Below, piece after piece: positions 31,642-62,866 of a stretch of 64,000 bases of DNA (within the stretch, counting starts at the first letter, position 1; every line of letters begins with the position of its first letter). Under the pieces are notes generated by a model. The model saw only the letters and a program-made list of their open reading frames with translations, did not search any database and was not told where the DNA came from. Source of the DNA: an uncultured Actinomycetes bacterium (GTDB taxonomy: Bacteria; Actinomycetota; Actinomycetes; Nanopelagicales; Nanopelagicaceae); NCBI GenBank assembly GCA_903838295.1, contig CAILXX010000002.1:62001-126000 (forward strand), given 5' to 3'. The position numbers were made by a program, and so were the translations under genes.

Positions 31642-32541
31642 ATGGATGAGTTGAGCGCCGCTGGAATAACAGATCCAGAGCTCCGCGCTTCCTATGCAGA
31701 GTGCAAAAGACTCAACTCACTTCATGGCAAGACCTATTACCTAGCAACACTTCTTCTACCAAAAGAGAAACGGCCATTTGTTCACGCTCTCTATGGTTTT
31801 GCTAGATATGCCGACGAAATCGTGGATGATTTAGCCTCGACTCTTTCGATTGAAGAGAAAGCTGAAGCCTTAAAGAGTTGGGGCGATGGAGTTCTCAATG
31901 ATTTACGCCAAGGAAAAAGTAAAGACCACATTGGTCGCGCGCTAGTCGATACGGTCAATCGATTCAATATTCCGATCGAGCATTTTGAATCTTTCTTGCA
32001 TTCGATGACGATGGATTTAACCGTCACGGAGTACCAGACATACGAGGACTTACTGGAATATGTATATGGGAGCGCGGCAGTTATAGGTCTGCAAATGGTT
32101 CCGATTCTTGGCGCTTCAGATATCAAGGCCTACGATGCAGCTCAGAAGCTTGGCATCGCATTTCAGTTAGCCAACTTTATTCGTGACGTTGACGAGGATT
32201 TAGACCGTGGGCGGGTGTACCTTCCCATCCTTGAACTTAAGGAACACGGAGTTACCTGGGAAATGTTAAATGCACGCACTGTAACTCCAGAAATTAAATC
32301 TGCGCTGCAATTCCAAATTTCTCGGGTTCGATCGCTTCAGCGAGAAGCTTCGGCTGGGATTTTGCTGCTGGATGCTTCCAGCAGGCCTTGTATTAATGCC
32401 GCTTCAGAGTTGTATTGCGGCATCGTCGATGAGGTGGAAAGAATTGATTATCAAATCTTCACACATCGTGCTCAAACTTCCACTGCTAGACGACTTAAAG
32501 TCGCAATTCCAGCCTACCTACAAGCTGTGCGCGCCAGATAA
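31642..32541 (+). CDS. crtB: Phytoene synthase CrtB
   Basis: 299-residue squalene/phytoene synthase joining two GGPP molecules head to head. The two acidic motifs are ARYADEIVDD and FIRDVDEDLDRGRVYLP, and YVYGSAAVIGLQM is the usual middle block. The ATG at 31642 begins one base after the crtI stop; an upstream in-frame start at 31624 would overlap crtI. It is the last carotenoid gene here. Confidence 0.95.
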   Translation: MDELSAAGITDPELRASYAECKRLNSLHGKTYYLATLLLPKEKRPFVHALYGFARYADEIVDDLASTLSIEEKAEALKSWGDGVLNDLRQGKSKDHIGRALVDTVNRFNIPIEHFESFLHSMTMDLTVTEYQTYEDLLEYVYGSAAVIGLQMVPILGASDIKAYDAAQKLGIAFQLANFIRDVDEDLDRGRVYLPILELKEHGVTWEMLNARTVTPEIKSALQFQISRVRSLQREASAGILLLDASSRPCINAASELYCGIVDEVERIDYQIFTHRAQTSTARRLKVAIPAYLQAVRAR

Positions 32542-32572
32542 GCTAGATGAGTTAGGTGAGTTAGAGTACGAC

Positions 32573-32657
32573 TAACGGGAGCCGCTATATGGCTGAGAGG
32601 ACCTGATCGCCAGGTCGACCGTAAGACCAGTTCGGTAATGCGAATTGGAAAGGGGTC
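32573..32657 (+). promoter_or_regulatory. TPP riboswitch (THI element)
   Basis: The aptamer has the conserved pyrimidine-sensing arm GCC-loop-GGCTGAGAG, a variable hairpin (GGACCT paired with AGGTC), and the diphosphate-sensing arm in which CCAGTTCG pairs with CGAATTGG around GGTAATG. The 3' end (GGAAAGGGG) contains the probable Shine-Dalgarno of the transporter, 6-8 nt before its ATG, so TPP binding would most simply block translation initiation. No terminator hairpin with a U-run follows. Confidence 0.9.
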
Positions 32658-32662
32658 CATCA

Positions 32663-33277
32663 ATGCATTCTTTTTCACACTCAATCATGACCGTCATGTT
32701 TACTGCTTGGGGTTACCAACTAACCTACCTAGAGTTCTTTGCCTTCATAACTTCGGTAGTGGGAGTCGCCTATGGCATCTTTGGACCGCGAATAACCTGG
32801 CCGTGGTGGAATATAAGCAGTTTGCTCTATGCGGGATTATTTTTTGAGCAAAAATATTATGCAAGCGCGCTTTTACAATTTGTATTTGTCGCTGGCGGTA
32901 TCTGGGGATGGTTTGGCTGGGGTCCAAAGGGTGCCAAGCCCGCTAAGTTAACTTTAAAACTTAATCTTTATTGGATTGTAGGATATGCAGTTGCTTGGTT
33001 CGCGTTATACCCAGGTTTGGTTCATATCGGTGCTGCGGCTTCTTTGACCGATGCATTCGGATTTGTCGGTAGTTGCATTGCGCAAATATTAATGTGCCTA
33101 GAAAGATACGAAGCCTGGCCACTCTGGTTCATCGTTGATGCGGTCTACACCTACCAGTTTTGGCATGGAAAGAGTTATCTCACCTCCATTCTATATTTCA
33201 TCTTTGTTCTGTTGGCGATCGGCGGCTGGAAACGCTGGCTTCGAATCGCTAATGCGCAAAATGATCGTAACAATTGA
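32663..33277 (+). CDS. pnuT: PnuC-family transporter, thiamine type (PnuT)
   Basis: 204-residue membrane protein of the PnuC fold with about seven helices. Trp-rich motifs typical of the family include WPWWNISSLLYAGLFFEQKYYASALLQF, GIWGWFGW and LWFIVDAVYTYQFWHGKSYL. PnuC relatives facilitate diffusion of vitamins that are trapped by phosphorylation. The TPP riboswitch directly upstream makes thiamine the likely substrate rather than nicotinamide riboside. The next gene, a kinase, overlaps it by 26 bp, consistent with the trap-by-phosphorylation model. Confidence 0.88.
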   Translation: MHSFSHSIMTVMFTAWGYQLTYLEFFAFITSVVGVAYGIFGPRITWPWWNISSLLYAGLFFEQKYYASALLQFVFVAGGIWGWFGWGPKGAKPAKLTLKLNLYWIVGYAVAWFALYPGLVHIGAAASLTDAFGFVGSCIAQILMCLERYEAWPLWFIVDAVYTYQFWHGKSYLTSILYFIFVLLAIGGWKRWLRIANAQNDRNN

Positions 33278-33755
33278 TGGAACAGCGGGTGCTGGGAAAA
33301 CCACGCTCGCCGAATATATGTGCGAACAATATAAAGATCAGATGAGTGTTGCCGTCGTGCATATGGATGATCTTTATGATGGTTGGGATGACGCCTTAGG
33401 TCTCAAACTCACATTAAAACTTGAAGGTATTGTCAGCGCGCACAAATCAGGAGAAGAATTTCGTACGACAGCATTTGATTGGAGACGCAACGAACCAGGT
33501 TCAGAATTAGTGATCCCACCCGTGGATTTACTAATACTTGAAGGAGTCGGTGCCGGGCAGAGCGCCATTCGCGATGCGGTAGAGACCAAAATATGGATAG
33601 ACCTAGAGCCGATTGTTGGACTGCGACGGGTCTTGGCGCGTGACGGGCATAACATCGAAGAGCAGATGCTTGCCTTCTTAGAACTCGAGCGAATTCATTT
33701 TTTAGAAGAAGGCACGCGCGATGCCGCTGAATTTCACCTGAATGGACTCAACTAA
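33252..33755 (+). CDS. P-loop kinase (uridine kinase-like), candidate thiamine kinase
   Basis: 167-residue cytoplasmic protein with Walker A GTAGAGKTT (near residues 10-18), the metal/base region VVHMDDLYDGW, and a LILEGVGAG Walker-B-like strand, as in small uridine-kinase-type enzymes. The family label says nothing firm about substrate. It overlaps pnuT by 26 bp and lies behind the TPP riboswitch, so a role in phosphorylating imported thiamine or a precursor moiety is a reasonable inference. ATGs at 33252 and 33261 are both possible starts. Confidence 0.75.
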   Translation: MRKMIVTIDGTAGAGKTTLAEYMCEQYKDQMSVAVVHMDDLYDGWDDALGLKLTLKLEGIVSAHKSGEEFRTTAFDWRRNEPGSELVIPPVDLLILEGVGAGQSAIRDAVETKIWIDLEPIVGLRRVLARDGHNIEEQMLAFLELERIHFLEEGTRDAAEFHLNGLN

Positions 33756-33771: not shown

Positions 33772-35574
33772 GTGTCAGACCTCACCGGAGAAGTAATTGA
33801 TGGGCGTTACCAGCTCCTTGAGTTGATTGCATCGGGTGGAATGGCCTCCATCTATAAGGCAACAGACCTTCGATTAGACCGTCACGTTGCCGTGAAGATC
33901 ATGCACCCACATCTGGCTAATGACGAAGACTTTGTTAATCGATTTATTCGTGAGGCTAAGGCTACGGCGGCTCTATCTCATCCCAACGTAGTTTCAATTC
34001 AGGATCAAGGATGGAACGAAGGTGGCGCTCCAGCGGTCTTTATCGTAATGGAATACATCGACGGTTTTACATTGCGTGATTTGCTTGTCGACCACGGTCC
34101 ACTCTCTATAGATGACTTTCTTCGTTACATGGTTCCAGTGACCAGCGCACTAGCTGAAGCGCATCGACTTGGAATCAATCATCGGGATCTCAAACCAGAG
34201 AATATCTTGATCTCCAAAGATGGTCGGATCAAAATCGCGGACTTTGGATTGGCCCAGGGGGGCGTCGTAGGAAACACAATGACCGCTGAATCAAGCATAG
34301 TTTTGGGAAGCGTCTCTTACCTTTCTCCAGAACAAGTACAACGAGGAATCTCTGATGCCAGGAGTGATATCTACTCTCTTGGCGTAGTTTTTTTTGAATT
34401 GCTTACCGGTGAGAAGCCATACGAAGGCGAATCTCCAATTCAAATTGCTTACAAGCACGTGAATGAACGCATTGGGGCGCCATCATCAAGACGTTCTGGA
34501 ATTCCTGAAGCCCTAGATAAAATCGTCATGAAGGCTACCTCACCAAATCCAGATGAGCGTCAGAAGAATGGGGCAGAACTCCTAGAAGATCTTCGACAAC
34601 TCCAGGTGACAATCGATCCTAAACGCAAACAAATGAGTTTGGAATTAGATCTTCCATTACCTCCATCTACGCGGAAGAAAAAGCGTGCACATGCAGAGGT
34701 TCGGATAGGCAACACAATTGTTGAGAGAATTAAGTCATCCACCGAACCAATACGTCCAGATTTCACTAAAGCGCAGCCGAAAGAAGAAGCCATGAGTAAA
34801 ACAGACCAAATTCGACGCAAGACCTCGCGTCGTGTCCGTCGCAATCGAATCCTCGCATTTCTTTTGATCACCCTGCTAGCAGTTGGCGGTTGGTACAAAT
34901 TATCTGGACCAGGAGCTGGGATATCGATTCCTTCTGTTGCTGGCATGAGCAAAAAAGATGCAACATCCACTCTGTCAGCATTGGGAATTAAAGCCACAGT
35001 CGGTTCTCAAAATTATGATCCTTCAATTCCTGCTGGCGAAGTCATCTCCTCAGATCCCGGCGGTGGCGGACATGTAAAGAAGGGCGGAACTGTTTCTCTG
35101 ACAATTTCGCAGGGGCAGCAACCGGTTCCAACACCGACTCCAACACCGACTCCAACTCCAACTGCAACTGCAACTGCAACACCAACTCCTTCGCCGATCT
35201 CAATCGCCTCTTATATAAACAAGAGTGGCGATCAAGCACAGAGTGAATTAACTGCTGTGGGGCTTACCGTTAAACAAACCTTTGGATTTAGCGACACCGT
35301 CGCCGCAGGTAATGTTATGTCGCAAAATCCCGATGGCTCTGCTCCTGTAGATGCTGGAAGCACGATTAATATCGTGATTTCTCAAGGGTCCTCACTGGTT
35401 TACATTCCAAATATTTATTCTTTGTCGAGAAGTGCGGCCAGCACTGCCCTGGAAAACCTTCAACTCAAAGTTGTCATTCGCAAGATTGGTAATGGGAAGC
35501 ACGTCACAAATGTCTCCCCAAAGGTTGGGACTCAGGTTAAACGTGGATCCACGGTAGTGATAACGCTCGGGTAG
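33772..35574 (+). CDS. pknB: PASTA-domain Ser/Thr protein kinase (PknB/StkP type)
   Basis: 600-residue membrane kinase that senses muropeptides or lipid II and phosphorylates growth and division proteins. The N-terminal Hanks kinase is complete: glycine loop ASGGMAS, Lys42 in VAVKIM, HRDLKPEN at 137-144, DFG at 157-159 and GSVSYLSPEQ. After a basic juxtamembrane stretch one helix spans about 359-375. Three extracellular PASTA repeats follow (about 384-448, 476-541, 542-600). Unusually, a Pro/Thr/Ala repeat linker of about 27 residues separates the first PASTA from the other two. The GTG start has no Shine-Dalgarno. Confidence 0.95.
   Translation: MSDLTGEVIDGRYQLLELIASGGMASIYKATDLRLDRHVAVKIMHPHLANDEDFVNRFIREAKATAALSHPNVVSIQDQGWNEGGAPAVFIVMEYIDGFTLRDLLVDHGPLSIDDFLRYMVPVTSALAEAHRLGINHRDLKPENILISKDGRIKIADFGLAQGGVVGNTMTAESSIVLGSVSYLSPEQVQRGISDARSDIYSLGVVFFELLTGEKPYEGESPIQIAYKHVNERIGAPSSRRSGIPEALDKIVMKATSPNPDERQKNGAELLEDLRQLQVTIDPKRKQMSLELDLPLPPSTRKKKRAHAEVRIGNTIVERIKSSTEPIRPDFTKAQPKEEAMSKTDQIRRKTSRRVRRNRILAFLLITLLAVGGWYKLSGPGAGISIPSVAGMSKKDATSTLSALGIKATVGSQNYDPSIPAGEVISSDPGGGGHVKKGGTVSLTISQGQQPVPTPTPTPTPTPTATATATPTPSPISIASYINKSGDQAQSELTAVGLTVKQTFGFSDTVAAGNVMSQNPDGSAPVDAGSTINIVISQGSSLVYIPNIYSLSRSAASTALENLQLKVVIRKIGNGKHVTNVSPKVGTQVKRGSTVVITLG
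35131..35196 (+). repeat. Hexanucleotide-like repeat encoding the PASTA linker
   Basis: In-frame tandem ACTCCA/ACACCG/ACTGCA units encode alternating Pro-Thr then Ala-Thr residues (about 453-475 of the kinase). Unit number could vary by slippage without changing frame. Confidence 0.85.
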
Positions 35575-62744: not shown

Positions 62745-62764
62745 TCATTTTTACCCACGCTTGC

Positions 62765-62866
62765 CGATTACCCTTTGTAATCGACCTGGTCTTCACCCGG
62801 AGCACCCCACCGTGGTGGAGGGTTGCCGTCCAGTAAGCCGGGGCTAAAACCTGGAACTCGTGACCT
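62765..62866 (-). promoter_or_regulatory. SAM-IV riboswitch
   Basis: The minus strand reads GGTCACGAG, then AGCCCCGGCTTACTGG, CGGCAACCCTCC, GGGGTGCTCCGGGTGA and AGACC, the ordered conserved blocks of the SAM-IV aptamer known from actinobacteria. The first and last blocks (GGTC/GACC) close the P1 stem. A further hairpin (CGATTAC paired with GTAATCG) follows the core. It lies about 75-100 nt upstream of metY and should turn off metY-metX when SAM is abundant. Confidence 0.9.

Follow-up and report, generated by a model that had tools for sequence, protein, structure and literature searches.

A variant TPP-type aptamer, a PnuT transporter and a uridine-kinase-like enzyme in a candidate thiamine uptake-and-trap operon of the Nanopelagicaceae

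In an acI-type genome of the Nanopelagicaceae (1.46 Mb, 99.28% complete), whose close relatives carry the names acI, Planktophila and Nanopelagicaceae in public records, a gene for a PnuC-fold transporter is preceded by an RNA aptamer and followed by a gene for a small P-loop kinase. These elements lie near the middle of the stretch of 64,000 nucleotides that was analysed (hereafter, the window), in the order crtB, aptamer, pnuT, kinase and Ser/Thr protein kinase gene, and the order of the three middle parts is conserved. The features of the locus are as follows.

31642 to 32541, + strand: crtB, phytoene synthase, the upstream flank (named from its recognisable sequence; syntenic in relatives)
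32569 to 32662, + strand: variant TPP-type (THI) aptamer before pnuT (RF00059 match, model R1 and covariation)
32593 to 32598, + strand: CUGAGA pyrimidine-sensor element, invariant in 22 aligned sites (role from PMC4112796)
32627 to 32648, + strand: P4-P5 hairpin, CCAGUUCG-GUAAUG-CGAAUUGG, base-paired at the position of the canonical J4/5-J5/4 loop
32649 to 32658, + strand: purine-rich ribosome-binding stretch directly 3' of the aptamer helix, as read from the sequence
32663 to 33277, + strand: pnuT, PnuC-fold transporter and proposed thiamine importer (PF04973, 4QTN fold, THI-element context)
33252 to 33755, + strand: P-loop kinase resembling uridine kinases, the proposed thiamine kinase (could also start at 33261)
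33772 to 35574, + strand: Ser/Thr protein kinase, the downstream flank (named from its recognisable sequence; syntenic in relatives)

The interval given for this module in the original prediction, 32573-33755, proves right to within a few bases, and its three parts (aptamer, PnuC-fold transporter and uridine-kinase-like enzyme) are borne out by profiles, covariation and predicted folds. The two genes, described there as fused by overlap, do overlap by 26 bp (33252-33277) if the kinase begins at its first ATG, and by 17 bp if it begins at the ATG at 33261; this is an ordinary overlap of reading frames, however, and not a gene fusion. Elsewhere in the window, an ordinary SAM-IV riboswitch (62752-62865, - strand, 105.9 bits) is followed downstream by a gene resembling O-acetylhomoserine sulfhydrylase and by a metX-like gene.

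The transporter, of 204 amino acids, belongs to the family of PF04973 (110.6 bits against a cut-off of 27.3), and its predicted fold matches that of PnuC (4QTN, TM 0.74). Its proposed role as a thiamine importer is suggested by the riboswitch and by gene content, and has a precedent in the same group: Kang 2017, in its accessible parts, reports that acI strains lack nearly all enzymes of thiamine synthesis and salvage, and proposes a putative PnuT for acI from a THI element at a pnuC-like gene (PMC5301498). The THI element and PnuT of acI have thus already been proposed, and strain IMCC26103 of that study corresponds to one of our loci (L156); the transporter and leader are shared, whereas those parts of the paper make no mention of the kinase or of the unusual aptamer (PMC5301498). 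A second PnuC-type transporter, 30% identical, is encoded in the genome at 40593-41165 of contig C1 (locus L063, 7573-8235, - strand); no Rfam riboswitch was found with it at the gathering threshold, and it possibly serves nicotinamide riboside.

The kinase has 167 amino acids, a Walker A motif and an RVLxRD lid, and was modelled with a pLDDT of 96.5. The solved structures nearest to the model are uridine-cytidine kinases (UCK2, 1UEJ: Z 18.8, rmsd 2.4, 165 residues aligned), and this fold, together with the invariant D39, R126 and R130, places the protein among the uridine kinase-like P-loop enzymes. Across 68 homologues D39, Y42, G44, W45, W77, E97, R126, R130 and D131 are invariant; the two tryptophans, W45 and W77, fall in the expected acceptor region of the model and may stack on thiamine. 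The protein does not score as a uridine kinase itself (udk, TIGR00235: 33.9 against 220.3), and the DHPDA nucleoside motif of the Thermus uridine kinase has no counterpart in an alignment with the kinase profile. Its best family match is NCBIfam PRK06547, a family of hypothetical proteins whose function is unnamed, of which it is a relative below the cut-off (88.5 bits against 173). Thiamine pyrophosphokinase (TPK, PF04263) is not matched among the families listed for the kinase, and the predicted fold is that of uridine-cytidine kinases, so that the original placement of the enzyme outside the TPK-type partners holds. ThiK of E. coli is an APH-fold kinase, whereas the enzyme described here is predicted to have a uridine-kinase-like P-loop fold.

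The aptamer is found at full length by the Rfam TPP model RF00059 at a permissive threshold (32565-32669, + strand, 36.4 bits, E 1.2e-5), which is below the gathering score of 54.3 bits, and a scan of the whole window at the gathering threshold accordingly misses it; the pnuT sites listed in relatives all score below the RF00059 cut-off as well. A model built from 22 homologous aptamer sites (R1) matches 32569-32662 with 103.7 bits, and among 87 distinct homologues the covariation score is 0.383, compared with 0.187 for shuffled alignments (none of 500 shuffles scored as high). Because of the R1 score and the strong covariation, the aptamer is not a chance match. Calling it simply a TPP aptamer, as was first done, goes too far: it is a real aptamer of the TPP type, but a diverged and non-standard one from which the pyrophosphate-sensor motifs are gone.

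In the canonical TPP RNA, P2, J2-3 and P3 make up the pyrimidine-sensor helix and P4, J4-5 and P5 the pyrophosphate-sensor helix, and its affinity for thiamine itself is lower than that for TPP by a factor of about a thousand (PMC4112796). The aptamers before pnuT have in common with RF00059 the overall shape and the CUGAGA and UAAUG elements, and the pyrimidine sensor is present, with P2, P3 and an invariant CUGAGA; P3 covaries and is paired in 100% of cells. By contrast, base pairs take the place of the J4/5-J5/4 pyrophosphate-sensor loop. The canonical J4/5 and J5/4 motifs each occur in 0/89 pnuT aptamers, as against 32/32 and 31/32 of the comparison aptamers, a contrast that is partly one of selection, as the comparison sites were chosen by their RF00059 score. 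The latter come from the Nanopelagicaceae and their class and precede thiBP, thiC, thiO, cytX or ykoE (at one site the gene is unidentified). The two pairs at the pocket position are formed in 87/89 and 89/89 pnuT aptamers, percentages biased toward pairing by an alignment fitted to a model already holding these pairs. The pairing is nevertheless considered real, since one of the pairs exchanges among A-U, C-G and G-C and since slid controls support it. A plain deletion of J5/4 was rejected, the wider set having base pairing and some extra bases instead; YGY is retained in J5/4 of some lineages, and we do not claim that identical residues were lost at every pnuT site. As the ribosome-binding stretch lies directly 3' of the last aptamer helix, control of pnuT is likely to be translational.

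Throughout the family, the kinase accompanies thiamine import. Among 80 kinase loci in public genomes, pnuT lies directly upstream in 77, in most cases with an overlap or a gap of no more than some tens of bases, while one of the other three is cut by the end of a contig and two lack pnuT; the genome survey called for in the original prediction thus places the kinase beside a gene for thiamine import, and not, as would have spoken against it, away from thiamine genes. (Six Nanopelagicaceae-type loci, L152, L180, L182, L185, L200 and L223, stand under Bifidobacterium breve or Streptomyces griseus titles that look wrong.) In 201 genomes of the family the kinase occurs in 186 and matches to the pnuT-type aptamer model in 182, those weak matches that were inspected proving to be canonical TPP sites. 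For the 99 genomes of high quality, the kinase is present in all 96 with a thiamine importer and in none of the three without. The importers belong to three unrelated types: PnuT in 87 (86 from a strong aptamer match, and G143 by direct inspection, which found pnuT at a contig end and so removed this genome as an importer-less case), ThiBP in eight, and YkoE in one, G123. Neither kinase nor importer was seen in two incomplete genomes (G008 and G005).

The kinase is therefore a partner of thiamine import in general rather than, as first thought, of PnuT alone, and a strict pairing with PnuT is rejected. ThiB exceeds its cut-off in 12 genomes, all of which carry the kinase and none a strong match to the pnuT aptamer, and in ThiBP genomes the kinase has no TPP riboswitch of its own. 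In the kinase tree the presence of PnuT changes about eight times, at least six of these changes being forced by well-supported branches, and throughout them the kinase is kept at its locus, beside the carotenoid and protein-kinase genes. These swaps of importer with retention of the kinase are more telling than the contrast with the three kinase-less genomes (G036, G073 and G084), for which Fisher's test (95/95 vs 0/3) gives 6.6e-6 but which belong to one genus and hence represent one event. That genus has ThiE, ThiO and a CytX-like importer of hydroxymethylpyrimidine (HMP) under canonical TPP riboswitches, and in G036 (L131, 3473-6759) thiE and thiO-thiS-thiG fill the slot between crtB and the protein kinase gene that holds pnuT and the kinase in other genera.

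A sample of 60 relatives was examined for ThiL, TPK, ThiE and ThiC. ThiL is present in nearly all of them and in the genome of the window (205.1 against a cut-off of 184.15). TPK was not found in any sampled Nanopelagicaceae genome, which leaves no separate TPK-type partner for PnuT among them. Apart from G034 and G036, no sampled Nanopelagicaceae genome has ThiE above the cut-off (G020 has one weak match below it), and ThiE was found neither in the genome of the window nor in any PnuT genome of the sample; ThiC is absent from sampled Nanopelagicaceae except G034. As ThiL requires thiamine monophosphate (TMP), and ThiE, ThiC and TPK were not found to supply it, the step from thiamine to TMP is a hole in the pathway. 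G034 combines ThiC and ThiE with ThiBP and the kinase, a set that fits import. Outside the family, two genomes of the same class (G040 and G044) have ThiL but neither ThiE nor TPK, and no relative of the kinase was detected in them; they imply other thiamine solutions, and a further thiamine kinase may be missing from the picture there.

Given the hole in the pathway, the adjacency to pnuT, the importer swaps and the absence of the kinase from the importer-less genus, we consider it probable that the locus is an operon by which a thiamine auxotroph takes up and traps the vitamin, with a kinase that makes TMP at the expense of ATP (thiamine kinase, EC 2.7.1.89). Judged from sequence comparisons, this is the simplest account and stands as a prediction, in which we infer the substrate, product, transport and regulation of the operon. 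Thiamine would enter through PnuT by facilitated diffusion and be converted, by the P-loop kinase encoded downstream, to TMP, which would be held inside the cell; ThiL, encoded elsewhere, would turn TMP into TPP; and the leader aptamer would lower translation of pnuT when a thiamine compound is plentiful.

It is unlikely, by our estimate, that the kinase acts on an unrelated metabolite, such as a nucleoside or nicotinamide riboside, and stands beside pnuT through inherited synteny. The nearest folds being uridine-cytidine kinases, with NRK1 also listed, such a role would suit the structure; the kinase remains at the locus without pnuT, the wider family is annotated as hypothetical, and part of the conservation of the kinase could reflect synteny alone. 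Against it, the kinase is missing from the genus that has no recognised thiamine importer and has thiE and thiOSG in the slot, the uridine-kinase DHPDA motif is missing, and thiamine would otherwise reach TMP without a recognised enzyme, ThiE, ThiC and TPK having been looked for.

The original prediction of an undescribed thiamine kinase is supported by the survey and by the failure to find TPK, whereas the HMP or hydroxyethylthiazole kinase that it offered as an alternative, with PnuT importing a thiamine precursor, is most improbable. Aquatic bacteria commonly salvage precursors, and importers of precursors also stand under TPP riboswitches, for example the CytX-like gene of G036; however, the genomes with this HMP importer lack the kinase, and with ThiE (which joins both precursors) and ThiC missing, the phosphates of HMP and thiazole would be dead ends. 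We give equally little credence to a one-step thiamine pyrophosphokinase that makes TPP and leaves ThiL a leftover, as uridine-kinase-like enzymes transfer a single phosphate and ThiL is kept in nearly all sampled genomes. What speaks for such an enzyme is the PnuT partner in Bacteroides, Tnr3, which is of the TPK type (PMC5613172).

A thiamine kinase making TMP would set the locus between two known systems. In the pnuT-tnr3 operon of Bacteroides, as here, a PnuT associated with a TPP riboswitch is followed by a thiamine-phosphorylating enzyme, of TPK type there and here an unrelated P-loop kinase that probably makes TMP for ThiL (PMC5613172). The proposed chemistry, thiamine to TMP and by ThiL to TPP, is that of ThiK and ThiL in E. 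coli (PMC4112796, PMC12632268). The kinase family is not one known for a thiamine kinase role, and a literature search on thiamine kinase and on salvage to TMP in Actinobacteria returned nothing relevant.

Given its altered pyrophosphate sensor, the RNA before pnuT may respond to thiamine or TMP, or else recognise TPP by another route. That the operon combines a new thiamine kinase family with a leader related to the TPP riboswitch but altered in its ligand, responding to thiamine or TMP, is a possibility we put forward tentatively and regard as rather doubtful; if the ligand is indeed altered, it would be the substrate or product of an enzyme in the same operon. Canonical and altered aptamers coexist in one bacterial family, which offers a natural test of riboswitch ligand change.

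The acI bacteria, which rank with the most abundant cells of lakes, have to import their vitamin B1; if correct, the assignment of the kinase would fill their missing thiamine step and name part of a family of hypothetical proteins. A distant relative of the kinase was also observed in genome G038, where it opens a frame of 702 codons (L058, 6051-8159, - strand) about 25 kb away from a YkoE-like gene and its TPP riboswitch.
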